Positions 3,550 through 47,833 of a stretch of 64,000 nt of DNA are shown piece after piece. Every line of letters starts with the position of its first letter. The first letter of the stretch is position 1. The DNA is from a virus: positions 47,419-111,418 of the IMG/VR virus record IMGVR_UViG_3300008117_000018. One strand, written 5' to 3'. Below the pieces are notes generated by a model, which had not been told where the DNA came from, searched no databases, and saw only the letters and a list, made by a program, of their open reading frames with translations. The translations under genes and the position numbers were made by a program.

Positions 3550-4077
3550 ATGTTAAACTCTAAGCCAAATAATACTAATTATTCTCAAGGTAATTATATT
3601 CCTAAAAACAAAGATAAAATAATAAAATTAAATACAATAGGTGGTGTTTACTACAGAAGTTCTTGGGAAAAAAAAATTATGACTTGGTTAGATCATAATG
3701 AAAAAATAACTAAGTGGGGAGCAGAATGTATGAGAATACCTTATCAAATGACTCATTTTGATAATGGTGACATGAAAGTAAAAGAGCACTGCTACTATCC
3801 AGATTTTTATTATGAGATGAGAAACGAAAACGGTCAGTTAAGGCAAGTAGTTGTAGAAGTAAAACCTATGAAAGAATATAAAATGGTCATTGCGTTAAAC
3901 GAAGGTAAACTCCAAGTTCCAGAAAAGGGTACAAAAAAGTTAAAAAACTTTGAATATGATTTGAAAATGGCATATAAGAATAAAAACAAGTGGGAAACGA
4001 TGATAAACTGGTGCAATAAAAAGGGTTATGAGTTTATAATAATTACTGAAGACCATCTAAAGAAATTTAATGTTTGA
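3550..4077 (+). CDS. gp4: Head completion protein, T4 gp4-like nuclease fold
   Basis: This protein finishes the packaged head in T4-type phages before the tail joins. It shows the TnsA/PD-(D/E)XK-like core: YRSSWEKK (E40) in the first helix, YYPDF (P84-D85), and VVVEVKP (E103, K105). All nuclease-type acidic and Lys residues are present. Length (175) is close to T4 gp4 (about 150). It is divergent from the 2803-3504 gene across 45 bp, and its last 11 bases overlap the end of the convergent membrane-protein gene. A nuclease trimming role is inferred from the fold. Confidence 0.8.
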   Translation: MLNSKPNNTNYSQGNYIPKNKDKIIKLNTIGGVYYRSSWEKKIMTWLDHNEKITKWGAECMRIPYQMTHFDNGDMKVKEHCYYPDFYYEMRNENGQLRQVVVEVKPMKEYKMVIALNEGKLQVPEKGTKKLKNFEYDLKMAYKNKNKWETMINWCNKKGYEFIIITEDHLKKFNV

Positions 4078-4780: not shown

Positions 4781-5854
4781 ATGAAAATTAAATTAGAGTA
4801 TATTTGGTTAGATGGTTCTGAGCCACAACAACTCAGAAGTAAAACAAAAATTGTTGACAAAGCAGATACAAATAATCCAGAGGATTACGCAATGTGGTCT
4901 TTTGATGGAAGTTCAACTCTTCAAGCAGAGGCAGGAAAAGGGAAAAACACTGATTGTTTACTAAAACCAGTTTTTGTCTGTAAAGACCCATTTAGAGAGT
5001 ATCCTAATAAATTGGTATTTTGTGAGGTACTTAGTCCAGATGGAACTCCTCATCCAACAAATAATAGAAGAAATTTATCTAATGTTATAGATGAGTTAAA
5101 TCTTACGAATTTAACTAAAGACGAGTCTCCATGGTTTGGTTGGGAGCAAGAGTATACACTTACTCATAAACCAGGATTGCCATTTGGTGAGGGTGTTGGT
5201 CTTCCACTTGGATTTGAAATTGGTAAAACACCAAGAGCACAAGGTGATTATTATTGCGGAATCGGAGCTGACACTGTAATTGGAAGACAAATAGTTGAAG
5301 AGCACATGGATATGTGTTTAGAGATTGGTTTAGATATTTCTGGTATTAATGCTGAGGTTTTACTTGGTCAATGGGAATATCAAATTGGCCCCGTAACTGC
5401 TTTGAACGGTTCTGATCAATTATGGATATCAAGATATATTTTGGAAAGAGTTGCAGAAAAACATAATGTCAACGTATCTTTACATCCGAAACCAATTAAA
5501 GGAGATTGGAATGGAACCGGTTGTCACGTCAATTTCTCTTCTAAAGAAATGAGAAAAGATGGTGGTATCGAATTGATTAAAGAAACAATGACAAAGCTTG
5601 AATCAACTCATATGGAACACATCCAGGTTTATGGTCTACATAATGAACAAAGACTTACTGGTGAACATGAGACATCAGGAATTCATGAATTTAGTTATGG
5701 ATATAGCACTAGAGATACTTCTATTAGAATTCCAGCACAATCTTTGGTTGAAGGTAGAGGTTATTTTGAAGACAGACGACCAGCCTCAAATTGTGACCCT
5801 TACTTAGTATCTGCTAAAATGTTAGAAACAGTTTATTCTGAAGTATTAGTATAA
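4781..5854 (+). CDS. glnA: Glutamine synthetase, type II
   Basis: Makes glutamine from glutamate, ammonia and ATP. The 357-residue length and motifs are those of the short GSII (eukaryote-like, also found in flavobacteria), not the roughly 470-residue GSI. N-terminal beta-grasp domain with MWSFDGSSTLQAE (about residues 38-50). Catalytic domain includes GWEQEYTL, QGDYYCGIG, EINAEV-type ISGINAEVLLGQWEYQIGP, GTGCHVNFSS, the HE-x-SG-x-HEFSYG loop and FEDRRPASNCDPY. All these catalytic blocks look intact. It is a single-gene unit closed by a strong terminator. Probably an auxiliary metabolic gene that supports nucleotide synthesis or nitrogen flow during infection. Confidence 0.96.
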   Translation: MKIKLEYIWLDGSEPQQLRSKTKIVDKADTNNPEDYAMWSFDGSSTLQAEAGKGKNTDCLLKPVFVCKDPFREYPNKLVFCEVLSPDGTPHPTNNRRNLSNVIDELNLTNLTKDESPWFGWEQEYTLTHKPGLPFGEGVGLPLGFEIGKTPRAQGDYYCGIGADTVIGRQIVEEHMDMCLEIGLDISGINAEVLLGQWEYQIGPVTALNGSDQLWISRYILERVAEKHNVNVSLHPKPIKGDWNGTGCHVNFSSKEMRKDGGIELIKETMTKLESTHMEHIQVYGLHNEQRLTGEHETSGIHEFSYGYSTRDTSIRIPAQSLVEGRGYFEDRRPASNCDPYLVSAKMLETVYSEVLV

Positions 5855-5865
5855 ACATACTACTC

Positions 5866-5900
5866 AAAAAAAACCCACTCAATTTGAGTGGGTTTTTTTT
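5866..5900. terminator. Bidirectional terminator after glutamine synthetase
   Basis: Stem ACCCACTCAA/TTGAGTGGGT with A-run on the left and T-run on the right. It can serve both glutamine synthetase (+) and the convergent gp55-like gene (-). Confidence 0.9.
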
Positions 5901-5915
5901 ATTTTGATAAACTAT

Positions 5916-6281
5916 TTAAATAGAATGTAGTCCTTGGCCATCATTACTACCTTCTATAGATATTAATTTTATTTGATTCTCATTATCACCCTTTTTCTTA
6001 TACAACTCATTAAAACCCTTAGCTATTCCTCTTTTAAAGACTTCTGTAAAATAAGCAAAAGCATTCACTGATTTATCTTCATTAAAATTATACCAATTTT
6101 GATACATATCTAATAAACCCGATTGATAACAATCAAGTTTATCATCATTTGACCAATATCTCATTTTTTTGATTGTTTTCTTACCAAGAAGTTCTAACAT
6201 TTTTTCAGCATTTCTGGTCAGTTTACCTTGTGCTTTTGATACGATTATCTCAACATAGAGATCTTTATTATTTAAATACAT
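5916..6281 (-). CDS. gp55: Late-transcription sigma factor, T4 gp55-like
   Basis: T4 gp55 is a minimal sigma-family protein that directs host RNA polymerase to late promoters with only a -10 element. This 121-residue protein starts YLNNKDLY like gp55 (YVNNKEL). It keeps the sigma region-2-like helix block MRYWSNDDKLDCYQSG, then YNFNEDKSVNAFAYFTEVFKRGIAKGF, which aligns by eye with [22 protein letters not shown] of T4. It is shorter than T4 gp55 (185), lacking much of the C-terminal part that binds the sliding clamp. It is a single-gene unit between two terminators. It is the natural candidate to read the TTAATATATA elements. Confidence 0.75.
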   Translation of the reverse strand: MYLNNKDLYVEIIVSKAQGKLTRNAEKMLELLGKKTIKKMRYWSNDDKLDCYQSGLLDMYQNWYNFNEDKSVNAFAYFTEVFKRGIAKGFNELYKKKGDNENQIKLISIEGSNDGQGLHSI

Positions 6282-6412: not shown

Positions 6413-7693
6413 TTAAATTTTAACTCTTTCTTTATATTGTAATTCTTTAACACCTAACAATTCAGCATCTAAATTAGCTCTTCTTTTTTCAAGATTTTTA
6501 AGAGCAGTAGAAAGAATTTCAGACTCACCTAAAAGCTCCATAGAACCTTTAACCTTTTCAATGTTGAATTGAACATCTTCTAATTTAAGAGTAACTTCTC
6601 TTTCTTTATCTTCAAGTTTTCTTTTAATAACTAATTCTTTATCTAATTTATTTTCATAAAAATAACTCAAATCATAATTTAACTCATTCTTAACTTCATT
6701 AACTAATTCTATAGCAGATTCATATTTAAAGAATGAATTACCATATCTTTCATCACATCTATAAAGAAATGTATTATTTTTATAATTAAAAGCAAAACAC
6801 TCCAAATGTGGATTAATTAAATTATTAATTCTTTTAACAACATCTAATTCAACAAACTTATCCATATTTTGAGATACTTCTAATAACACAGGATAAAAGT
6901 TTTTATTTACTATCGGAACAATAGGAGATGAGAAAAGAGACTCTAACGTAGTTTCGTCATTCAATTCATCTTCATTAATAAAAATTCCTTTTCCATTAAC
7001 ACCTAAACCAATTGTTAAGTACTCAGATACTCTAAAATTAACTCTATCCTCAGAAATTTGAGCATATTTTAAAGCAGATTCAATAACTCTTAAAGTTTTC
7101 AACTCAGCTTCATCTTTAACATGATTTTCTAAAAGTGTTTTCTCAATTGAATTTTCAGTAAGTAAGAACCAAGAATCCTTAACTAAAGCAATATGACCAT
7201 CTTCAACTTGTTCTACAATAGTAAATACAGATTCACCCTTACCACCACTTAACAAGTTTGTTCTCTGTTCAGGTGATTTTGTCAAATTATGAACAAATAA
7301 TTTAATCTCAGGAACCCAATCATAAATAGCCAATTCATTAAGAACTTTAGACATCCTATCTTGTTCTGACTCTACGTTAATAGCTTCTAAAAGAACATTG
7401 ATAGGTTGTCTATACAATTCTCCTTGATTTTTAGAGTTCAATATGTTATATAGACTTTTAAGTTCATATAACAATTCATGAGCTTTAACATCATCATTCA
7501 AATTTTCTAAAAGAGATTTTACACTTTTATCATATGTATACGCTTTTAATTTTTCATTAAGAGAATTAATAATAGTCTTTTCTGAATGTTCATTGCATGC
7601 ATTCATATGCCCTTCAATTATAACTGAAATCTCTTCTTGGTCAAGTGAAAGATTCTTTTTGAAGTTAAACAATTCTAGTTTAAGATTCTTCAT
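6413..7693 (-). CDS. Unknown 426-aa phage protein with C-terminal coiled coil
   Basis: Residues 1-100 are helical and acidic. The middle (about 120-330) is mixed alpha/beta with FVHNLTKSPEQRTNLLSGGKGESVFTIVE and a beta-rich section. About residues 350-415 form a charged coiled coil. No signal peptide, membrane segment or catalytic motif is visible. It stands alone between a terminator and the gp15-like gene, and an exact TTAATATATA lies 29 bases before its ATG, so it should be a late, possibly abundant virion or assembly protein. I do not recognise the family. Confidence 0.82.
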   Translation of the reverse strand: MKNLKLELFNFKKNLSLDQEEISVIIEGHMNACNEHSEKTIINSLNEKLKAYTYDKSVKSLLENLNDDVKAHELLYELKSLYNILNSKNQGELYRQPINVLLEAINVESEQDRMSKVLNELAIYDWVPEIKLFVHNLTKSPEQRTNLLSGGKGESVFTIVEQVEDGHIALVKDSWFLLTENSIEKTLLENHVKDEAELKTLRVIESALKYAQISEDRVNFRVSEYLTIGLGVNGKGIFINEDELNDETTLESLFSSPIVPIVNKNFYPVLLEVSQNMDKFVELDVVKRINNLINPHLECFAFNYKNNTFLYRCDERYGNSFFKYESAIELVNEVKNELNYDLSYFYENKLDKELVIKRKLEDKEREVTLKLEDVQFNIEKVKGSMELLGESEILSTALKNLEKRRANLDAELLGVKELQYKERVKI

Positions 7694-7722
7694 ACTTATA
7701 AATATTATTTTTTTATATAATC

Positions 7723-7732
7723 TATATATTAA
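7723..7732 (-). promoter_or_regulatory. TTAATATATA element, long-distance class
   Basis: Exact 10-mer on the minus strand, 29 bases before the ATG of the 426-residue unknown protein. Confidence 0.55.
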
Positions 7733-7765
7733 GACAAAAAACTCATTTTTTGCTATTTTTTATTT

Positions 7766-8902
7766 TTAAATTGGATTCGGATTTATAGGTGGATTTTGAG
7801 TATCATTTCCATTTGCACCTTTACCAGCATTTGGATTTGAATTTATTGCATTCGCATTTTGTCTTGCTTTCAATATATTATTAAACCACCTAGTTCTTTT
7901 CGGAGCATATGAAAAATAATCAGAGTCAGACTTAGGAGTAGGAGCAGAACCAGCGGGCCATCCACCAAAACTACCAGTTTGTCCATATTGAGGAAGTTCA
8001 CCAGGTATATCAAACGGAGTTTCGTTGTAAGGCCAAGGAAGCGAACCAGGGAAAGGTCTACCTGGTGGACCACCAGGTGGTAATGAATCCGGATTTAAAG
8101 GTATAAAATCAGGTCCATTAGGATCACCAGTGACAGTAGGATTAGGCGCAGTACCATCACCACCAACATCAAAGGCATTACCTAAATCACTACCAGTGTT
8201 CCAATTATTCAAATCAGCACCATCTGACTGACCAGTACCATAAAGTGTAGGATAACCATCTAGATTTACTCTATCTCTTCTAAATGCAGGATAGTATGTT
8301 TGAACTTGAAATGATAATGTCAACTTTATCGTATTATCACTTGTTAAATTTTTTTCTCTGTTTATTTCAATTGAACTTGAATCAGGCATTATTATCACAG
8401 CATCTATGTTCATGAAATTATGCTCAAAATACATGAATTTATAAATCCAAAGAGTATCCAAAATAGCTTGACTACATTTAAATGTATCAATTTCATTTGA
8501 CAGAAGTATAGATAGTTCATAATCAACCGTGATAGGAACTGCCCTAACCTTTGCTAATATTTTTCGTATCTCTACCTGGTTCTCTACAACCATTCTTAAC
8601 CAAACATTTGGATTAGCAAATTCATCTGACATAATATTAAACGACTTAAGTGTTATATGTCCTCTCGGGATTATATCAGTGTTTAATTCTACAAATCTGT
8701 TTTCAGAAACTATATCATCCTGAAAAGTATCAAGCAAAAATCTTTCATCTCCAGAAAGTGAGTAATAAAAGGGAACCTGAACATATATATCACCTGATGA
8801 AAATCTGTTAACCCATTTTATTTGACCCTCTAATGTATCAAGTACACAGACTGTCAAATCTCGAAAGAACACATCTTCCATGTTAAACTTTCCTGCTATC
8901 AT
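7766..8902 (-). CDS. Possible tail terminator/sheath stabiliser (T4 gp15-like)
   Basis: 378 residues. The N-terminal 220 residues have the layout I associate with gp15-type tail-completion proteins: FFRDLTVCVLDTLEGQIKW, then VQVPFYYSLSGDERFL, then a ferredoxin-like block VPITVDYELSILLSNEIDTF. After residue about 225 comes an unusual Pro/Gly/Asn-rich tail. I prefer the ATG at 8902 because an exact TTAATATATA ends five bases upstream, as in seven other genes here; TTG at 8944 and ATG at 8908 are possible. It is divergent from gp44. The family call is tentative; the gene itself is secure. Confidence 0.6.
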   Translation of the reverse strand: MIAGKFNMEDVFFRDLTVCVLDTLEGQIKWVNRFSSGDIYVQVPFYYSLSGDERFLLDTFQDDIVSENRFVELNTDIIPRGHITLKSFNIMSDEFANPNVWLRMVVENQVEIRKILAKVRAVPITVDYELSILLSNEIDTFKCSQAILDTLWIYKFMYFEHNFMNIDAVIIMPDSSSIEINREKNLTSDNTIKLTLSFQVQTYYPAFRRDRVNLDGYPTLYGTGQSDGADLNNWNTGSDLGNAFDVGGDGTAPNPTVTGDPNGPDFIPLNPDSLPPGGPPGRPFPGSLPWPYNETPFDIPGELPQYGQTGSFGGWPAGSAPTPKSDSDYFSYAPKRTRWFNNILKARQNANAINSNPNAGKGANGNDTQNPPINPNPI

Positions 8903-8907
8903 AAGCA

Positions 8908-8917
8908 TATATATTAA
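8908..8917 (-). promoter_or_regulatory. TTAATATATA element, short-distance class
   Basis: Exact 10-mer on the minus strand, five bases before the proposed ATG at 8902. It overlaps the alternative ATG at 8908, which argues for the inner start. Confidence 0.5.
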
Positions 8918-8964
8918 ATAGAGTTTGTCCCTAAACTTATTCAATATTTAAAAATATATTTTCT

Positions 8965-9955: not shown

Positions 9956-10330
9956 ATGCCAGTAAACTTTAAAGATTTCTACATAGGATATAAAGGTCAT
10001 CCAAGATACGAATCTTCTAAATTTATAGAAGATGATGTAATTAGAGTAATCGTTCAAAAATATGAAATGATAATTTTCACTAACAAAGGTGAGTTATTAG
10101 GTGATCCTAGTTTTGGTGCTGATTTACCGCTATTACTTCATGAGACAAGACTCTCAGAAGATAGTATACAAGGCGATATAAACGCTCAAATATTTGAATA
10201 TATACCTGAAATAAGTAATATACCCTATACTTTAGAGGTCAATATTTATGATGATCCAGAAAGACACCAAGAGTGGATGGAAATTCTTTTTCAGATTAGA
10301 GACTTAGAAGTATACGCAACAGTAATCTAA
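9956..10330 (+). CDS. gp25: Baseplate wedge protein, gp25/GPW family
   Basis: A baseplate wedge component that starts sheath assembly in contractile tails. At 124 residues it is near T4 gp25 (132). The family signature is present: a helix with DVIRVIVQKYEMIIFTNKGEL and then GDPSFGADLPLLL (about residues 49-61), corresponding to the consensus G-E-x-x-x-P-x-F-G-x-x-L. It follows gp44 by 25 bp but has its own TTAATATATA four bases from the ATG. Its end overlaps the convergent SET-domain gene by four bases. Confidence 0.9.
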   Translation: MPVNFKDFYIGYKGHPRYESSKFIEDDVIRVIVQKYEMIIFTNKGELLGDPSFGADLPLLLHETRLSEDSIQGDINAQIFEYIPEISNIPYTLEVNIYDDPERHQEWMEILFQIRDLEVYATVI

Positions 10331-10779
10331 TCTACTCTATAACTATTTCTTTGCCAATATCTTTTACCATAACCGACAAATATTTCTTCACCGGAACGAA
10401 TATCTCTATCAGCAACTAAAACAACTTCATCATCATCATTCATTGTTATGATAGAATTATTTTTGAAATTTGAAGAGATACCCTCCGCATCATTTGCAAA
10501 TTTCGCAAAACAAAAAGTTTTCTTACAATCTAATGTTTCACCAGACGGCAACATCATAAAATAATCATCTTCTTTTGCATTTGCTCTTTTTGCGGCCTCT
10601 TCATTTGATATTACTTCACCCATAAATTTTGATATTACTTCACCACATTCTATATCTATAGATGTAAAGAGTCCATTTCCGGAATTTGGAATTTGAGAAG
10701 ACTGTACATATAAAAAATCTTCTTCTGGTAAATCTATTGAGTCGTAATCGAAATTTTCAAAAAATTTAAGATATTTCAT
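10327..10779 (-). CDS. SET-domain protein (putative lysine methyltransferase)
   Basis: SET domains transfer a methyl group from S-adenosylmethionine to protein lysines. After a tag-like N-terminus (MKYLKFFENFDYDS) come the SET blocks: SSQIPNSGNGLFTSIDIECGEVI (about 27-49), MGEVIS, FAKFANDAEGISSNF and the C-terminal RDIRSGEEIFVGYGKRYW. The usual NHS motif is NDA here, so activity may be altered. I start at ATG 10779; a GTG two codons upstream is less likely. It lies 13 bp after the isochorismatase-like gene in one operon, and both carry the same N-terminal tag. Substrate unknown; host or virion proteins are possible. Confidence 0.82.
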   Translation of the reverse strand: MKYLKFFENFDYDSIDLPEEDFLYVQSSQIPNSGNGLFTSIDIECGEVISKFMGEVISNEEAAKRANAKEDDYFMMLPSGETLDCKKTFCFAKFANDAEGISSNFKNNSIITMNDDDEVVLVADRDIRSGEEIFVGYGKRYWQRNSYRVD

Positions 10780-10792
10780 ATACACTTAGGCT

Positions 10793-12694: not shown

Positions 12695-13111
12695 TCAATT
12701 ATTTTTTAATTTGTCTTTTAAAGAATTTATTAAGTCATCACCTTCTCTTTTTAAAGGATTATCTTTAAGTTTCTGTATTCTTTTTTTTGACTCTTCAAGT
12801 ATTTTTTTATTATCAGATAATTGATTGTTTGCAATTATCAAATTATTTTTTGCCACTCTTAAATCTTTTTCAATATTTTTTATTTTTTCATCCCTATTAG
12901 AGATTATTTTCTGTATAGAAATATAATCTTTTTCCAATTTTTTATTTACTATTTTCAAAGAGTCTCTAATCTTTTCTATTTCTTGAATCTTTCTATCAGA
13001 TTCTTTAATTTTCTTCTTATAATCACTACCTTGCATATACCACATTGTAGCAAAAATGATAGAACTAACAAGTAATGCTAAAGTTATTATTGAATTAACA
13101 TTTAACTTCAT
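12695..13111 (-). CDS. N-anchored coiled-coil protein, possible i-spanin
   Basis: 138 residues: an N-terminal membrane segment (SIITLALLVSSIIFATMWYMQ, about 7-27), then an almost uninterrupted Lys/Glu/Ile coiled coil to the end. This is the topology of Rz-type inner-membrane spanins, which sit in the periplasm and fuse inner and outer membranes at lysis. It is the first gene of a two-gene operon with the exported coiled-coil protein. The role is inferred from topology only; a tail or membrane-scaffold role is an alternative. Confidence 0.7.
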   Translation of the reverse strand: MKLNVNSIITLALLVSSIIFATMWYMQGSDYKKKIKESDRKIQEIEKIRDSLKIVNKKLEKDYISIQKIISNRDEKIKNIEKDLRVAKNNLIIANNQLSDNKKILEESKKRIQKLKDNPLKREGDDLINSLKDKLKNN

Positions 13112-13156: not shown

Positions 13157-13187
13157 TTTGATTTAAAAAACAAAATTTGTATTTTTG
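13157..13187 (+). promoter_or_regulatory. Bacteroidetes host-type promoter (TTTG-N19-TATTTTTG)
   Basis: TTTG at 13157-13160, a 19-base spacer and TATTTTTG at 13180-13187 match the Bacteroidetes primary-sigma consensus (-33 TTTG, -7 TAnnTTTG) exactly. It lies 26 bases before the ATG of the HAD gene, so the HAD-ClpS unit should be read by unmodified host polymerase, i.e. early. Confidence 0.82.
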
Positions 13188-13213
13188 TATCAAATTATTT
13201 TAATAAATAAGAA

Positions 13214-13795
13214 ATGTCTAAAACTTTATACTCATTCGATTTTGACGATACTCTTTGTCATACTATGTTACCAGAAAATGGTGAAAAAATCTGGTTTGAA
13301 AAAACTGGAACAAAGTGGCCTTATAGAGGATGGTGGTCAAAACCAGAAACAGTAGACCCTGAAATATTTTTTACTCCAAAGAATGAATGGGTTTATTTAG
13401 AGTATTTAAAAGCCAAAAGAGATGAAGACTCTACAATTATTATGGCAACTGGTAGATTACAAATAGTTCCTAATATGAGAGAAAATATCATAAAAATCTT
13501 AAACCAACATAATTTATCTTTTGATGAAGTTTGGATTATAAATTCCACAGACGAACAACAAAGTGGAAATGGAAAAGATGGAATTTATTTAAATTGGGGC
13601 GGTGATACATTTATGTTTAAAACTACACTTTTTGAAAAACTAATATCTATTACTCAATGCGAACACTTTGTAATGTATGACGATAGACAAGAACACTTAG
13701 GTAGATTTGAAGAGTGGGCATCAACTCAAAATTGTAAAGTAACAATAGTAGACGTTGTAAATAAAAAATCAACAATTATAAACGAAAATATATAA
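13214..13795 (+). CDS. HAD-superfamily hydrolase (Swiss Army Knife RNA-repair-like)
   Basis: 193 residues with the HAD catalytic set: motif I DFDDT (D9, D11), motif II MATGR with the Thr/Gly pair, and the metal-binding motif IV MYDDR. The insert WFEKTGTKWPYRGWWSKPETV resembles phage HAD proteins linked to RNA-repair enzymes. It could remove phosphates from nucleotides or RNA ends. It is read from a strong host-type promoter and is followed one base later by clpS, so both are probably made early. Alternative: a general nucleotidase. Confidence 0.85.
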   Translation: MSKTLYSFDFDDTLCHTMLPENGEKIWFEKTGTKWPYRGWWSKPETVDPEIFFTPKNEWVYLEYLKAKRDEDSTIIMATGRLQIVPNMRENIIKILNQHNLSFDEVWIINSTDEQQSGNGKDGIYLNWGGDTFMFKTTLFEKLISITQCEHFVMYDDRQEHLGRFEEWASTQNCKVTIVDVVNKKSTIINENI

Positions 13796-13796
13796 G

Positions 13797-14087
13797 ATGA
13801 ATATGGCAACAATTACAAAAAAGAAAACATCAACAAAAGTTGAAGAATTATTATCTAAACCATATCTTTTGGTTTTACACAATGATGATTATAACACATT
13901 CGACCACGTAATAAATTGTCTGATGAAACACTGCGGTCATGAATTTGAACAAGCGAATCAGTGCGCACATATAGTTCATTTTAATGGTAAATGTGACGTC
14001 AAATATGGAGATTATGACACGATTTCAACTATGAAAGATAAATTGAAAAATGCGGGTCTTTCGGTAACAATGGAGGCTAATTCATAA
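13797..14087 (+). CDS. clpS: ClpS adaptor of the Clp protease
   Basis: ClpS binds N-degron substrates and the N-domain of the ClpA/ClpC ATPase and alters what ClpAP degrades. The 96 residues carry the family core PYLLVLHNDDYNTFDHVINCL; the N-D-D triad lines the N-degron pocket. IVHFNGKCDVKYG matches the His-containing strand of the pocket. The C-terminal half has the DT-I-MKDKLKNAGLSVTME layout of ClpS. The N-terminal extension is short and Lys/Thr-rich. Start at 13797 or 13803. It shares an operon with the HAD gene and meets the terminase gene end to end. No phage Clp ATPase is visible, so it should act on the host machine. Confidence 0.92.
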   Translation: MNMATITKKKTSTKVEELLSKPYLLVLHNDDYNTFDHVINCLMKHCGHEFEQANQCAHIVHFNGKCDVKYGDYDTISTMKDKLKNAGLSVTMEANS

Positions 14088-39614: not shown

Positions 39615-41477
39615 TTAAAAATACGTAGTTACTACAACAATCCCATCACCACCACGGCCACCAGCACCTGATACAACACCAACACCAACATTACTTGAAG
39701 CAGCACCACCACCACCTCCGCCTCCATATAGACCACCAGCGGATCCAGAACCGGCTGCAATATTACTAGAGCCTCCGCCTCCGCCTCCTTGACCAAACAA
39801 AGTTCCAGCAACTTGACTCAAAGCAAGACCACCACTTGCAGCAATAGGACCACCGTTTGTATCACCTGTAATAAATATTTGTCTTATGTTACCACCACTT
39901 CCACCAGATTGTAAAGCATTAGCCGAACTAATTGAGCCTCCGCCTCCGCCTCCGCTCGGTCCATATGGTATTTCAGCACCATCATCCGCAGTAGCAGCCG
40001 TATTCGATCTACCTCCATTAGCAGGGTTAGTTAGATAAGTATTACCAACACCTCCAATCGGTGGAAGTATACTTTTAGCAGAAGAGCCACCAAAACCGGC
40101 GCCTCCGCCTCCAGCAAAAGAAAAAGTTCCAAAAAGACTATTACCACCAGCCGAACCAGGTCTACCATTAGTTGAGTCAGTTGCTTGAGAACCACCTCCT
40201 GTACCAGATGTACCAACTGTAACCGAGACAGTAGATGGCAAATCTTGACCGATGAAATTAGTAACAGAAACACCACCACCTCCACCACCATCACCACCCA
40301 TTCTAGTAGAAGAAGCAGCACCTCTTCTACCAGAGCCACCTCCACCACCAGCACCAATAAGAATAACATTTACTAATTTAGCTCCATTTGGTTTAGTCCA
40401 AGTAGAATTTGAGGTATAAACTTGGACATTTGAAGCACTAACGTTTCCTTGACCCGACGTACCAGAAGTAGAACCTGACGTACCAGAAGTACCAGAGGTA
40501 GTTGCTTGACCTCTTGTTCCAGATGTACCTTCAGAAGCTTGAGTACCAGATGTACCAAATGTTCCACTCGTTCCACTTGTACCATTTGAACGACTTATTC
40601 CAGATGTACTAATACCACTTGTTCCAGATGTAGATGAGAGTGCAGAAAAGCCAACTATTGATGAACCACTTGTTCCAGCAGTAGAAACACCACCTGAACT
40701 TCCCGAGGTACCGGATGTTGAAACATCACCATTAGTACCAGATGTTCCTTTAGTACCGGAAGTAGCAACTTGACCCGTTGTTCCAGCAGTACCAGACTGA
40801 CCAGATGTACCATTAGTACCAGATGTACCCTGAGTACCAGATGTACCAGATTGACCAGATGTTCCAGCAGTTCCAGTTTGTACACCGGATGTACCGGATG
40901 TACCAGATTGAGTAGAAACAGCATTTGTAGTTATGTTACCTGATGTACCAGATGTCGTAAGAGAAGCATTTGCAGTTGAAATACCAAAATTACCAGATGT
41001 TCCGGATGTATTAGAGTTCCCGGATGTTCCGGATGTGTTAGATGTTCCTGATGTTCCTGATGTTGTTATTTGACCTCTTGTACCAGAGGTACTTGATAAA
41101 CCAGATGTTCCAGCAGTCGTTGATAAAGTATTATTAGTTGATATTCCAGAGAGACTACTGACTGAAGAAAAACCCTGTGTACCAGATGTTCCAGATGTTC
41201 CATTTGTACCAGATGTTCCAGATGTTCCATTTGTACCAGATGTTGCATTAAAAACAGCACCTGAGCTACCAGAAGTTGAATTCTGACCAGATTGACCAGA
41301 TTGACCATTTGTACCAGAAGTATTTGAAATACTACTATTTCCAGATGCACCGGATGACAAAGAATTTCCAGAAGTACCGCTGGTTTTAGAAGAACCATTT
41401 GTACCAGAAAGTCCATTTGTACCAGACGTTCCACTCTGTATTAAACCACTAACACTATTAATTTTAGATAACGACAT
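39615..41477 (-). CDS. Collagen-like fibre with polyglycine tip, copy 1
   Basis: 620 residues in two parts. Residues 1-350: GTSGTSG-type triplet repeats (G-T/x-S/x) likely to form a collagen-like triple helix. Residues about 353-620: a glycine-rich domain starting [31 protein letters not shown], then repeated poly-Gly tracts with hydrophobic spacers, as in S16-type adhesin tips that pack polyglycine helices and carry the receptor-binding loops. One of three tandem paralogues. TTAATATATA is four bases from the ATG. Ser/Thr content makes it a possible O-glycosylation target. Confidence 0.85.
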
Positions 41478-41481
41478 AATT

Positions 41482-41491
41482 TATATATTAA
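41482..41491 (-). promoter_or_regulatory. TTAATATATA element, short-distance class
   Basis: Exact 10-mer on the minus strand, four bases before the ATG of fibre copy 1, inside a 10-base intergenic gap. Confidence 0.6.
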
Positions 41492-43362
41492 AATCTAGTA
41501 ATGACAACAACCACACCGTCACCACCATCACCACCACGACCCGAACTAAATCCGTTAGTAGAAGCACCTCCGCCTCCGCCACCACCTCCATATAGACCAC
41601 CATCACCTCCCCTGCCTCCAGGAGTAAGCGCGATATTACTTCCAGCACCACCACCAGCACCACCTCTTCCCAATAAAGAAGCATCTGAACCAGGTCCAGT
41701 TTGACCATTTACCCCAACAGCTGCACCAGCAGCAAATATTGTACTATTATCAACCGTCAATATTGACCCACCGTTTCCTCCAGTCCCGAATACATTAGTA
41801 GCAGAAATGTTACCACCACCTCCACCACCAGTCGGTTTATAAGGAGTATCCTCAGCAGCACCACCCGATGTTCCACCATCACCAGTATTACCTGAAGTTC
41901 CTGGATAATTAACATCACCACCAATACCACCGGTACTAAATGAAGCGGTTTTACCACCATCTCCACCTCGACCACCTCCCACAGTCAAATAGACATTAGC
42001 ACCAGTAATATAATCACCAAATATAGTATCGTCACCATTATTACCATCATTACCGTTTGTGTTTATAGTTGAAATTGCAGCACCACCACCACCACCAGCA
42101 CCCGGATTACAAAGCACACTAGATGGTAGTATTGAGGCATTAATAAGAACTCTAACATGTCCTCCTGAACCACCACCAGATCCACCGAATCTTGTTCTAC
42201 CAGAAGCATTCAAAGCACCAGAACCACCACCACCGCCACCACCTATACAAATGACCTCAACCATTTTAGCACCGCTTGGTTTAGTCCATGTAGCATTTAC
42301 AGCCGAATAGGTATTAATTTGTATAGAAACAGCACTGGTACCACTTGTACCAAAAGTACCCGATGTTCCCGAAAACCCACCAGAACCGGAAGTTCCAGAG
42401 GTTCCACCAGTTTTTGAGATACCAGAAGTTCCGGATGTTTGAGATGTTCCTGAAGAACCACTAAGAGTACCAAAACCAGAAGTTCCTGAAGTAGTACCAG
42501 ATGTACCGGAAGTAGATGATAAACCAGAAGTACCGGAAGTTCTGAATGCACTAGATGTACCCGAATTACCACTATTTCCTGTTGTTCCTGAAGTACCACT
42601 ATTACCATTAGTTCCAGATGTTCCAGAAGTCGATGATAAACCAATTGTACCTGATGTACCTCGTGTACCACTAGTACCAGAACCACTTGATACACCAGAA
42701 CCACCAGAAAATGAAGAGACACTTGATACCCCAGAACTTCCTGATGTACTTGAATTTCCAGATAAAGAAGAAGTTCCAGATGTACCAGAAGTTCTACTTT
42801 GACCAGAACTTCCTGATGTACCTGTAGTTCCTGAACTACCCGATGTTCCAGAAGTAGTCAATCCAGAGGTACCGGAGGTTGACGAATTTGCGGAGGTTCC
42901 TGATGTATTTGAAGTTCCAAAAGTTCCAGAAGTTGATGAGTTATTACTCAAACCAGAAGTTCCAGAAGTAGTATTCAAACCATTAGAAAAAGAATTACCG
43001 GACGTCCCTGATGTCGTATTGACACCGGATGTACCGGAGGTTGTATTAATACCTGATGTTCCAGAAGTATTTGAAGAATTACTTATGCCAGATGTACCAG
43101 ATGTACCAAATCCTCCAGATGTACCAGAAGTATTGTTATTTCCAGATGTACCAGAAGTATTGTTATTTCCAGATGTACCAGATGTTCTAGTTAAACCGGA
43201 TGTTCCAGCGGTTGAAGATAAACCAGATGTTCCTGAAGAACTATTATTACCAGAACTACCACTAGTGCCGTTGGTTCCTGATGTACCAGAACTACCAGAA
43301 GTCGATGATAAACCAGATGTACCGGATGTATTATAATTTACACTATCTATTTTATTTATCAT
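41488..43362 (-). CDS. Collagen-like fibre with polyglycine tip, copy 2
   Basis: 624 residues, same plan as copy 1: short N-terminus (MINKIDSVNYN), TSG repeats to about 355, then YSAVNATWTKPSGAKMVEVICIGGGGGGGSG and poly-Gly tracts. The first tip strand is conserved among the three copies while the loops between Gly tracts differ, as expected for receptor-binding variation. The stop overlaps the promoter-like element of copy 1. TTAATATATA lies five bases from the ATG. Confidence 0.85.
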   Translation of the reverse strand: MINKIDSVNYNTSGTSGLSSTSGSSGTSGTNGTSGSSGNNSSSGTSGLSSTAGTSGLTRTSGTSGNNNTSGTSGNNNTSGTSGGFGTSGTSGISNSSNTSGTSGINTTSGTSGVNTTSGTSGNSFSNGLNTTSGTSGLSNNSSTSGTFGTSNTSGTSANSSTSGTSGLTTSGTSGSSGTTGTSGSSGQSRTSGTSGTSSLSGNSSTSGSSGVSSVSSFSGGSGVSSGSGTSGTRGTSGTIGLSSTSGTSGTNGNSGTSGTTGNSGNSGTSSAFRTSGTSGLSSTSGTSGTTSGTSGFGTLSGSSGTSQTSGTSGISKTGGTSGTSGSGGFSGTSGTFGTSGTSAVSIQINTYSAVNATWTKPSGAKMVEVICIGGGGGGGSGALNASGRTRFGGSGGGSGGHVRVLINASILPSSVLCNPGAGGGGGAAISTINTNGNDGNNGDDTIFGDYITGANVYLTVGGGRGGDGGKTASFSTGGIGGDVNYPGTSGNTGDGGTSGGAAEDTPYKPTGGGGGGNISATNVFGTGGNGGSILTVDNSTIFAAGAAVGVNGQTGPGSDASLLGRGGAGGGAGSNIALTPGGRGGDGGLYGGGGGGGGASTNGFSSGRGGDGGDGVVVVITRF

Positions 43363-43367
43363 AACTA

Positions 43368-43377
43368 TATATATTAA
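43368..43377 (-). promoter_or_regulatory. TTAATATATA element, short-distance class
   Basis: Exact 10-mer on the minus strand, five bases before the ATG of fibre copy 2. It overlaps the stop region of copy 3. Confidence 0.6.
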
Positions 43378-45284
43378 GTAAAATAAGTTGTAACAACAAC
43401 AATTCCATTCGCACCAAAACCACCGTTTCCAAACTTATCACCACGAGGTATGTTATCGCCATTAAGACCAGCACCACCGCCTCCACCGCCTGCACCATAA
43501 AGAGCACCATTAGCACCAATACCGGATCTAGCAGCTCCTCCACCTCCTCCACAACCAATATCAGAAAAAGAATCACCCTCATTACCATCAGTTAATGATG
43601 GGTCAGTACTAGCAATTCCAGGATTACCACCTAAACCGTTGGTATATTGAACTGTACCACCATCTCCCCCGTCGAAATTAGTATTACTAGCGTTTATACT
43701 ACCACCACTACCTCCACCAGTTGGTGCTCTGAATGTGAGAGCACCAGCAACACCAATACCACCAGCACTATTTCCACCAGAACCTCCACGTTCAATATTA
43801 CCATAACCACCTGAATTGTTAGAAGTCGGAATACTAGCAGATGAACCACCTCCACCACCTCCACCACCAAAAGCAATTAGGTTACTACCAAATCCAGAAC
43901 CTAGTGCTGAAGTACCAAATATCGAATCAGTACCCGCGGCACCATCACTTCCATCTTGATTATTGGCAGTCACTACTCCTCTACTACCACCCTGACCAAC
44001 CTGAACCGTCTCTGAGTTTTGTAAATCAGAAGCCCTGAAAATAGCTCGTGAAAAACCTCCACCACCTCCACCATTACCACCCCATCGAGCAGTACTAGTA
44101 GCTGACCTTCTACCAGCACCTCCTCCTCCGCCACCACCAATACAAATCACTTCAACCTTATCTGCATTTGCAGGCTTTGACCAACTAAAAATTGTTGTAA
44201 GTGGACTAGCAATAACCGTGTAAACCTGAACATCAATAACATTCAGTGTACCGGATGTTCCAGATGTTCTTGATAAACCAGAAGGAGCAATAGCTCCTTG
44301 ACTAGTTGATATACCAGAAGTTCCACTTGTCGTAGCATTAGGAAAAGAAGATTGAAAACCAGAAAAATTTGGATTATTACCGGTAGTTCCTGAAGTACCT
44401 TGTGTACCAGATGTACCTACAGCTCTGCTAAGACCACCCGTACCAGAGCTACCAGAGGTACCATTGGTTGAATTTAATCCAGCAGTACCACTAGTAGAAA
44501 AATTGGTTGATATTCCTGTGTTACCACTACTACCAGATGTTGTGGAAAATCTGTTACCACCACTCTCTCCACTCGTACCAGAAGTTCTAGATAGACCGTT
44601 AGTAGTCAGACCTGATGTTCCATTTGTTCCTGAAACCGAAACAAAACTACTTGAGGTTCCAGACGATCCAGCGGTACTCTGTGGCGTTTGAGCAGATATA
44701 CCTGAATTTCCAAATGTACCAGATGAACCAGAGGTCAATGAAACCCTGCTTGAACCAGAATTTGATGAATTTGATGAATTTCCAGACGTACCAGAAGTTT
44801 TATTTGAACCAGATGTTCCACTTGTACCATTCGTACCTGATGTAGAAGAATTTCCAGCGGTTCCTGTAGTACCATTTGCTGAAGACTGACCAGAAGTACC
44901 GGAAGTTGAATTTGTACCAGAAGTGGATGATTGGCTTGACAAACCAGACGTACCACTCGTACCATTAGTTCCAGAAGTAGAAGAATTTCCAGCGGTTCCT
45001 GTAGTACCATTACTTCTTGAATTACCAGCCGTGCCTGATGTAGAAGAGGTACCAGCTGTTGAATTTATACTTGAAATCCCACTTGAACCTGAAGTACCAG
45101 AACTACCAGAACTACCGGATGTTGTAGATAAACCACTAGTACCTGTTGTACCAGAACTACCAGAAGTACCAGAAGTACCAGAAGTAGAACTTACTAAGCT
45201 ATTAGTAGATTGTCCAGATGTACCAGATTGACCATTTGTACCGGACGTACCAGTATCTATAACAATACCATTTATTTTCTGCAT
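43374..45284 (-). CDS. Collagen-like fibre with polyglycine tip, copy 3
   Basis: 636 residues: MQKINGIVIDTG start, TSG/TAG repeats to about 350, then [42 protein letters not shown] and poly-Gly tracts ending IVVVTTYFT. It differs from copies 1 and 2 in the middle of the tip. The three copies share repeat type, tip entry strand and end strand, so they arose by duplication. TTAATATATA is four bases from the ATG. Confidence 0.85.
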   Translation of the reverse strand: MQKINGIVIDTGTSGTNGQSGTSGQSTNSLVSSTSGTSGTSGSSGTTGTSGLSTTSGSSGSSGTSGSSGISSINSTAGTSSTSGTAGNSRSNGTTGTAGNSSTSGTNGTSGTSGLSSQSSTSGTNSTSGTSGQSSANGTTGTAGNSSTSGTNGTSGTSGSNKTSGTSGNSSNSSNSGSSRVSLTSGSSGTFGNSGISAQTPQSTAGSSGTSSSFVSVSGTNGTSGLTTNGLSRTSGTSGESGGNRFSTTSGSSGNTGISTNFSTSGTAGLNSTNGTSGSSGTGGLSRAVGTSGTQGTSGTTGNNPNFSGFQSSFPNATTSGTSGISTSQGAIAPSGLSRTSGTSGTLNVIDVQVYTVIASPLTTIFSWSKPANADKVEVICIGGGGGGGAGRRSATSTARWGGNGGGGGGFSRAIFRASDLQNSETVQVGQGGSRGVVTANNQDGSDGAAGTDSIFGTSALGSGFGSNLIAFGGGGGGGGSSASIPTSNNSGGYGNIERGGSGGNSAGGIGVAGALTFRAPTGGGSGGSINASNTNFDGGDGGTVQYTNGLGGNPGIASTDPSLTDGNEGDSFSDIGCGGGGGAARSGIGANGALYGAGGGGGGAGLNGDNIPRGDKFGNGGFGANGIVVVTTYFT

Positions 45285-45288
45285 GTCT

Positions 45289-45298
45289 TATATATTAA
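45289..45298 (-). promoter_or_regulatory. TTAATATATA element, short-distance class
   Basis: Exact 10-mer on the minus strand, four bases before the ATG of fibre copy 3. Confidence 0.6.
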
Positions 45299-45308
45299 AA
45301 TACAAGTC

Positions 45309-47363
45309 TTACAATTCTATCCAATCTTGAGAAGGATTAAAATAAATTCTTCTATTTGTAGAAGTTCCTATTACATAACCTATGACTCTTACAATATTTC
45401 CAGCAGAAGAAGGCGCAGCAGCGACTGTTCTACCAGCTGTTGAAGAACTCAAAAATAATGGCTCTCCTATATTACCAACGGTGAATAAAGAAGAACGATA
45501 GAAGCCTCTTACTAACATACCATCATTGGTTGAGTTTGTGCCAATTGCAACGGCTAATAAATCATTTCCGCCATTTACCAATACATCACCTTGTGCTTTA
45601 GTCCAAGTACCACCGGTATTTAGGTAGTAAATTTCACCAGCAACAGTTGTTGTATTTCCAAAATTAACAATATCACCATAACCGGTGCTATCAGCCGATA
45701 AATAAGTATTGGATGTAGGGTCAGATATTAAATCATAACTACCAGATAATACTAAATTTGTACCATCAAAAGTAAAGTTTGGTTCACCATCTAATGTAGA
45801 AGCAGTACCAGTCATAGTAACAACTCTGTTATTAGAATTACCATTTAGTGTGACCGTCGCTGAGTTGCCAGATGTTCCAGAAGTTCCTTGGTTTGTTGTT
45901 ATAAACAATAATAAATCAATTGAATTACTAAAGTTAGTAGTACCTGTTCCACCAGAATCTATATAAGTTACCGGAAATGAATAGTAGTTATTAGAAACAA
46001 AAGTTGGATTAGAATTTACTTTCCAAGTCTGATAATTATTTGAATTTGTTCTATCTTGAATTATAATATTCTGACCAATTTGCATCAACCCTAGAAATAC
46101 ATCAATATCATCACTATTTGTAGTAAAATGATCGATGTTGATAATAGTAGAAGCTGTCTGACCTGAGCTATTCCAAATTATGAAACCTGGTCCTGGATCT
46201 CCACTGAATATTGTTGTGTTGGATTGATACGGAAATACATTGGACGAACCACCGTTTAAACCACTAGTACCGGAAGTTCCTTTAGTTCCGGAAGTTCCAG
46301 CAGTTCCATTGGCACCATTAGCACCGGAAGTTCCGGTAGTTCCATTAGCACCATTAGCACCCGAGGTTCCAGCAGTTCCGTTAGCACCATTAGCACCCGA
46401 GGTTCCAGCAGTTCCGTTAGCACCATTAGCACCGGAAGTTCCTGATGTTCCGTTAGCACCATTTGCACCAGAAGTTCCTGATGTTCCGTTAGCACCATTT
46501 GCACCAGAAGTTCCTGATGTTCCATTAGCACCGGAAGTTCCTGATGTTCCATTAGCACCGGAAGTTCCGGCAGTTCCATTAGCACCCGAGGTTCCAGCAG
46601 TTCCGTTAGCACCATTAGCACCCGAAGTCCCCGAAGTCCCAGCAGCTGAATTGATTGTTAATATGTTACCATTTGTATCAAAACCAAGAGCTCCAATAGA
46701 AGTTCCTGGAAATTTACCAGCGGTGTTATAATTAGGTAGTTGTAATTGACCAGTCAAATGATTTATTTGTAAATCAACAGCACTTGAAGTAGTATTATTT
46801 CCTTTAAGTATTCTAAAGGAGTCTTGATAGTTATCTATAGCAGAAGCTGTACCATATCCAGAACCAGATTGAAGTGTTATTTGACCACCTTCACCAGAAC
46901 CTCCTCTTGCGCCCAGAAATAAAGTAGCCTCTGTTGATGAATAAGTTGTTCCTATTAGAACGGATATTGAATTCTGTGTCGAAGACTGCGTAACTGTCAT
47001 CCATGTTGAAGCAACAGCAGCATTTGTAGAACCATCTGACAATAAAACACGTAAATTGCCAGCATTACTGATTGTGTTGAAACCTGTTCCAGAAGTACCT
47101 GATGTTCCGTTAGCACCCGAGGTTCCAGCAGTTCCGTTAGCACCATTAGCACCCGAGGTTCCAGCAGTTCCGTTAGCACCATTAGCACCAGAAGTTCCAG
47201 CAGTTCCGTTAGCACCGTTAGCACCCGAGGTTCCAGAAGTGCCATTAATTCCAGAGGTTCCGGATGTTCCCGATACCCCATCAAGACCATTTAATAAAAT
47301 CCAATCATTAAGTGAAGATGGAACATTATTATTATTATTTGCAGTGGATTGATAAGAAAACAA
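45309..47363 (-). CDS. Collagen-like fibre, C-terminal part (probably continues 47291-47833)
   Basis: 684 residues with no normal start: the frame opens after a TAA at 47385-47387, and the only nearby start is TTG at 47363. It begins [14 protein letters not shown] and continues into [13 protein letters not shown] repeats, a beta domain ([16 protein letters not shown]), a second repeat block (46260-46640 on the genome), a domain with [21 protein letters not shown], and a C-terminal beta domain ending NPSQDWIEL. The preceding gene ends in repeats and runs out of frame at exactly this place. The two parts read naturally as one protein of about 850 residues with a one-base frame change near 47367-47375. 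Confidence 0.7.
46260..46640 (-). repeat. 36-bp tandem coding repeats ([12 protein letters not shown])
   Basis: About ten copies of a roughly 36-base unit (and 18-27-base shortened forms) encode [12 protein letters not shown]-like collagen triplets. A smaller block of the same unit is at 47095-47240. The two blocks in one gene favour unequal recombination. Confidence 0.88.
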
Positions 47364-47833
47364 ACCATCAATACAGCAGCACCGTTAACACCGGATGTCC
47401 CAGAAGAACCTGATGTACCATTATCTCCTTGATTACCGGAAGTTCCTGATGTACCATTATCTCCTTGATTACCGGAAGTTCCAGCAGTCCCATTATTTCC
47501 ATTAACACCGGAAGTTCCAGCAGTTCCGTTAGCACCATCTACACCAGAAGTTCCTGATGTTCCATTAGAACCTGTTGCACCCATGCCAGATGTACCTGAT
47601 TGTTTTAAAACTAAATTCCCATCTAAAATACCACCATAAAACCAATATTCTACTATGGGATCAGAACCAACAATAATACCAACCGTCAAACCTTCATATC
47701 TATAAGATGGTAATAAGTAAGTAGTTGCTGCCGAAAGAGCTGCTGATAAGTTGGCACCAGTATATGGACCATATTTGGCATCACCGGGACCTGTAGTTTT
47801 AGCTAGTATGTTATCACTTAAATTAATTGCCAT
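47291..47833 (-). CDS. Collagen-like fibre, N-terminal part (frame change at its end)
   Basis: 180 residues as read: [26 protein letters not shown], then a small beta domain ([18 protein letters not shown]) and [15 protein letters not shown] repeats to VNGAAV. The last 30 residues ([16 protein letters not shown] and on) are unlike the rest and are the product of a frame change. Reading back one base near 47369 restores [12 protein letters not shown] in the downstream frame. It is the likely N-terminal part of the 45309-47363 fibre; sequencing error, mutation, phase variation or frameshifting cannot be told apart here. Confidence 0.72.

Follow-up and report, generated by a model that had tools for sequence, protein, structure and literature searches.

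A few inhibitors are known through which phages control the proteolysis of their hosts, and we know of no N-degron adaptor that has been characterised as a core viral gene. In cells, including those of Bacteroidota, the adaptor ClpS acts as the N-recognin of the ClpCP or ClpAP machine, where it canonically contacts the N-domain of ClpA (PMC12493166) and its own N-terminal segment is poorly conserved (PMC9663308). Contact with this domain is not always needed, as the M. tuberculosis ClpS acts in vitro on ClpC1 lacking its N-domain, via the Middle domain (PMC6274998). As for phages, the use of the host Clp system has already been proposed: Iyer et al. 2021 (PMC7824862) suggested that a jumbo-phage ClpS delivers proteins to host ClpAP, and they also noted stand-alone Swiss-army-knife HADs in jumbo phages, while the genome description of the Agrobacterium phage Atu_ph07 includes a ClpS (gp708) plus several Clp proteins (PMC6102473). 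The ClpS described here resembles these in being a phage-encoded adaptor of the Clp machinery; it differs in that the relevant parts of both sources describe neither a HAD-paired core gene of Bacteroidota phages nor a ClpC without an N-domain. Within our partial coverage of the literature, we found no prior description of an obligate HAD-ClpS pair, its conservation as a core gene in a Bacteroidota phage clade, a fixed ClpS extension, or the co-occurrence of ClpS with N-domain-less ClpC.

The HAD-ClpS locus

The window (the whole 64-kb stretch of DNA analysed, taken from a 111-kb virus record) belongs to a phage of a T4-like jumbo-phage clade of Bacteroidota. The features of the locus are as follows.

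12695..13111, minus strand: short coiled-coil membrane-protein-like gene (from the ORF table), divergent, forming the upstream operon boundary; homologue in 67/82 loci
13157..13187, plus strand: predicted Bacteroidota-type promoter TTTG-N19-TATTTTTG, exact match; -33 box at 13157-13160, -7 box at 13180-13187
13214..13795, plus strand: HAD-superfamily phosphatase of the HAD_SAK type, 193 aa (Pfam PF10307, HAD_SAK_1, E 7.6e-10)
13797..14087, plus strand: ClpS N-degron adaptor, 96 aa (Pfam PF02617, E 3.3e-19; AF2 model; Foldseek)
13803..13862, plus strand: ClpS N-terminal extension (MATITKKKTSTKVEELLSKP), almost the same in all the phages, whereas it varies among Bacteroidota ClpS
13881..13889, plus strand: N29-D30-D31, predicted contacts of the substrate alpha-amino group; 100% identical across the phage clade
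13899..13901, plus strand: F35, gatekeeper position (Met40 in E. coli ClpS); invariant, and Phe in Bacteroidota ClpS too
13977..13979, plus strand: H61, histidine of the pocket (equivalent to E. coli His66), without variation across the phage clade
14088..16226, minus strand: terminase large subunit, TerL (Pfam Terminase_6N, E 1.6e-21), convergent with ClpS, the two ORFs abutting

The initial annotation had placed an exact TTTG-N19-TATTTTTG promoter ahead of the HAD gene, and we recovered it at 13157-13187 as a predicted promoter with the two boxes recognised by the Bacteroidota sigma factor (TTTG and TANNTTTG, ~19 nt apart, upstream of a gene). Given that the window holds three copies of the exact N19 pattern where shuffling predicts 0.81, the presence of the motif alone is weak evidence, and its placement in a 102-nt divergent intergenic region gives stronger support. 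Of 38 distinct relatives, 30 have the motif with no more than one mismatch in the 160 nt that precede the HAD gene (Markov shuffles: mean 7.4, maximum 15), the commonest spacing being 19; as these relatives share kinship and are hence not independent, the apparent retention of the promoter is support and not proof. With a gap of only 1 nt between the HAD and ClpS ORFs, the proposal of a two-gene unit with its own promoter also stood, and the HAD phosphatase would be co-transcribed with ClpS and functionally linked to it.

The HAD call itself was confirmed, with a Pfam HAD_SAK_1 score of 39.3 bits (cut-off 25.6) and all four catalytic motifs intact (motifs I-IV: D9xD11xT13, T79-G80-R81, K136 and D156-D157), their catalytic positions being at least 95% conserved among 41 homologues. 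The protein is thus similar to the Swiss-army-knife HADs of phage RNA repair (HAD_SAK; PMC7824862) in being a stand-alone HAD with the HAD_SAK_1 signature and intact catalytic motifs; however, its neighbours are ClpS and TerL rather than an RNA ligase.

Relatives of the window ClpS are encoded by at least 356 viral contigs, at 74-88% identity besides identical copies (59% and 42% in two outlying genomes), and one is also found in three huge-phage records of 634-642 kb. The pairing with the HAD gene is nearly obligatory from both sides. A HAD gene lies upstream of ClpS in 79 of 82 ClpS loci, two of the exceptions being contig edges and the third, L081, truly lacking the HAD gene yet retaining ClpS. 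In the other direction, ClpS lies beside the HAD gene in 81 of 82 HAD loci (80 by the script rule, plus L361 with a slight overlap), and the sequence of the remaining locus ends 102 nt past the HAD gene; these loci were collected with an alignment query, a single HAD query having matched only near-identical loci. None of 80 cellular ClpS loci had a HAD gene beside ClpS. One relative (L043) carries a homing-endonuclease-like ORF between the two genes (5314-5970, plus strand).

TerL adjoins ClpS in nearly all relatives, downstream and on the opposite strand (in L077, at 6707-8962 on the minus strand, it bears an apparent intein or Hint-like insertion). This neighbourhood, along with the tight HAD pairing, would suit a ClpS repurposed together with the HAD phosphatase for a non-proteolytic task, such as a packaging regulator beside the terminase. 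We consider such a role very unlikely, given that the N-degron pocket residues are all intact, that the HAD-ClpS pair is retained in G023 though TerL is no longer adjacent, and that L081 keeps ClpS without a HAD partner.

Elsewhere in the window, we noted a TnsA-like endonuclease domain protein (3550-4077, plus strand; Pfam E 1.6e-12), a glutamine synthetase-like gene (4781-5854, plus strand; Pfam Gln-synt_C, E 3.9e-20), which is unusual for a phage structural region, and a SET-domain protein (10327-10785, minus strand; Pfam E 1.2e-12) that has a similar-looking counterpart close to TerL in LR756502 (L087, 4592-5035). Several tail or fibre genes with collagen-like GTSGTSG repeats lie at 39615-47833, where G+C is above that of the rest of the window.

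ClpS fold, N-degron pocket and origin

The product of the second gene is a genuine ClpS. It scored 68.9 bits against Pfam PF02617 (curated cut-off 23), and its AlphaFold (AF2) model (mean pLDDT 80.7) found ClpS structures as its best solved matches in Foldseek, with an rmsd of 0.7-1.4 Å over 72-80 columns in the better alignments. Judging from the alignment of homologues, the conserved start is the second ATG at 13803, giving a protein of 94 aa. Using the pocket positions given in PMC12493166, we mapped L27, H28, N29, D30, D31, N33, F35, V38, A57, V60 (or I), H61 and L88. Across ~40 phage sequences these positions show either no change or conservative replacements, and almost all of them have the identical residue in Bacteroidota ClpS. 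The initial annotation had described a ClpS with an intact NDD pocket, and this held in every respect, as the family and fold agreed, N29-D30-D31 was invariant and structure modelling revealed no loss of pocket residues. The phage ClpS very likely binds N-degrons. The E. coli docking residues E79, E82 and K84 align to D72, T75 and S77, a mapping that is inexact, with an uncertain helix-3 register, as profile alignments to the solved E. coli ClpS end before or at helix 3.

The phage protein shares with cellular Bacteroidota ClpS its fold, its family, the pocket signature NDD-N-T/S-F...A...H and up to 55-58% identity. It differs in lying beside a HAD gene, in its near-invariant extension, and in the phage-fixed residues H58, D67 and Y70 and the ISxMKxK motif in helix 3. 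In the phylogenetic tree, in which many forks lack resolution owing to the short protein, 43 phage ClpS and one Chitinophagales MAG sequence cluster within Bacteroidota ClpS (support 97/96), consistent with the phages having obtained this N-recognin from a Bacteroidota host. The clade of the window ClpS has that of the G002 ClpS as its sister, and the ClpS of LR756504 (L086) falls elsewhere and is probably a separate gain. This gene (L086, 7992-8276), which a huge phage seems to have acquired independently as a second case of ClpS gain, lacks the conserved extension.

Median dN/dS values (Nei-Gojobori; rough, with synonymous sites near saturation) were 0.098 for ClpS, 0.093 for TerL and 0.223 for the HAD gene. 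As its value matches that of TerL, ClpS appears to be a core gene of the clade and no passing cargo gene.

The extension comprises ~20 residues ahead of the core (the family norm being about 20-25), with low pLDDT at its start. Phages of the clade share it almost unchanged as MATITKKKTxSKVEEILSKPY. Non-synonymous changes are as scarce in it (pN 0.121) as in the core (0.137) although synonymous sites have diverged, which suggests that the extension has a specific partner. Along with residues 75-82, it differs from host ClpS in a fixed manner.

Clp ATPases of the phages and their hosts

The initial annotation had reasoned that the adaptor should act on the host ClpAP or ClpCP machine given that no phage Clp ATPase is present. 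As an observation this stands, as neither a Clp ATPase nor ClpP was found in the 64-kb window or the whole 111-kb record; as a premise it does not. The record lacks end repeats, and it is very probably a genome fragment, since no DNA polymerase B was found in it and 13 of the 17 records searched have one. Its missing Clp genes are uninformative, both because it is incomplete and because larger relatives encode ClpC and ClpP, so the inference to the host machine was not borne out. The ribosomal-protein gene bS21, not found in the 111-kb record, is present in 6/6 clade members of at least 262 kb searched, a pattern that suggests kinship of the source phage with those phages. A link between bS21 and late expression (PMC9723584) was considered as a timing clue for the HAD-ClpS operon and dropped, as it says nothing on timing.

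A ClpC-like ATPase is encoded by every ClpS-bearing relative of at least 262 kb (G006, G007, G016, G018, G023, W01, W02 and W03), and ClpP by all ClpS-bearing large relatives searched for it (G006, G007 and W01-W03), and by the smaller G002 and G004; even the 131-kb member closest to the window clade encodes it. The 436-kb genome of G006 contains three ClpP-like genes (L188, L189 and L190), the third of which is divergent (188 aa), with catalytic residues that look altered. The phage ClpC retains the Walker motifs, pore loops and UVR-type middle region, keeps a VGF loop like that used for ClpP binding, and shares 66-78% identity with host ClpC over the compared part, from the D1 linker onward.

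The two differ at the N-terminus. Ahead of Walker A, ClpC of 7/7 ClpS-bearing large clade relatives has 87-97 residues, compared to ~230-250 in Bacteroidota ClpC, and Pfam Clp_N was found in 0/17 phage records searched and in the Clp ATPases of 12/12 Bacteroidota genomes. By these sequence comparisons, ClpC of the ClpS-bearing relatives lacks the N-domain, the canonical ClpS docking site. More broadly, phage ClpC (L191-L270) falls in two length classes, with ~64-102 or 218-306 residues before Walker A (without and with an N-domain, respectively). ClpC with an N-domain occurs in other jumbo phages, and those searched lack ClpS. A strict trade-off between ClpS and the ClpC N-domain was dropped, as two large records (373 and 348 kb) encode N-domain-less ClpC without ClpS; the association seen is one-way, with ClpS implying a short ClpC in eight genomes.

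With moderate confidence, we favour the phage ClpS as an N-degron adaptor that docks on host ClpC. Docking on the host thus survives from the initial annotation in weaker form and on other ground, namely that phage ClpC lacks the N-domain and all 12 Bacteroidota genomes encode a Clp ATPase with one; the partner in these hosts would be ClpC rather than ClpA. The phage ClpS would bind proteins via a destabilising N-terminal residue and deliver them to the ClpC-ClpP machine during infection. The docking site would most likely be the N-domain of host ClpC, as ClpC in the ClpS-bearing relatives lacks one; at this site host and phage ClpS would compete, and the fixed extension of the latter may enter the ClpC pore. 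This is consistent with the Pfam and fold match to ClpS, a pocket conserved as in host ClpS, the nesting of the phage proteins with those of Bacteroidota, selection equal to that on TerL, the HAD pairing seen from both sides, and the canonical contact (PMC12493166) with an N-domain present in hosts and absent in phage ClpC. Against it, a private partner is available, since the relatives encode a ClpC and a ClpP of their own in which the motor motifs and the VGF loop are intact, and the fixed differences in the extension and residues 75-82 could mean a new docking partner.

The main rival, which we hold possible but only tentatively, is that the phage ClpS works for the ClpC-ClpP of the phage itself, in which ClpC has no N-domain, adaptor and machine together forming a private N-degron protease beyond the reach of host adaptors. 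ClpS could then dock through its extension in the pore, on the ClpC middle domain, or on a conserved acidic N-terminal tail of ClpC (IKASLEDDDDD-like) that we noted in all seven ClpS-bearing clade relatives with the ATPase, each of which has a short ClpC. In W03, ClpS lacks the extension and ClpC lacks the tail, so that the two are absent together; this correlation comes from few, related genomes. An extension as constrained as the ClpS core also fits a viral partner, as does the service of ClpC1 via its Middle domain in M. tuberculosis (PMC6274998), which likewise counts against the need for host docking, although there the N-domain was removed experimentally and here its absence is natural and viral. 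On the other side, the canonical docking domain is missing from phage ClpC, short ClpC also occurs without ClpS in the 373- and 348-kb records, and the 111-kb record itself holds neither ClpC nor ClpP. A full private viral N-degron pathway, in which viral ClpS acts on viral short ClpC and the HAD phosphatase processes or controls the substrates, is doubtful in our estimation. A viral leucyl/phenylalanyl-tRNA transferase was considered as a source of N-degrons and rejected, as none was found in the 17 records searched.

Blocking in place of delivery is a further alternative, and one that we judge unlikely. As a competitive blocker, the phage ClpS would occupy the host ClpC N-domain or cap N-degrons, halting host degradation of phage or host proteins without delivering anything. 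In known systems, ClpS does inhibit the degradation or unfolding of ssrA-type substrates (PMC9663308; PMC6274998), and a blocker of this kind would leave the phage's own ClpC, which has no N-domain, unaffected. However, the pocket and the extension are both under strong selection, as delivery predicts, and a pure N-domain blocker needs neither.

If the phage ClpS acts on host ClpC, as we favour, it would be a clean case of the retargeting of the N-degron pathway by a virus. If it instead acts on viral ClpC, it would break the rule that ClpS delivery requires the N-domain of the ATPase.
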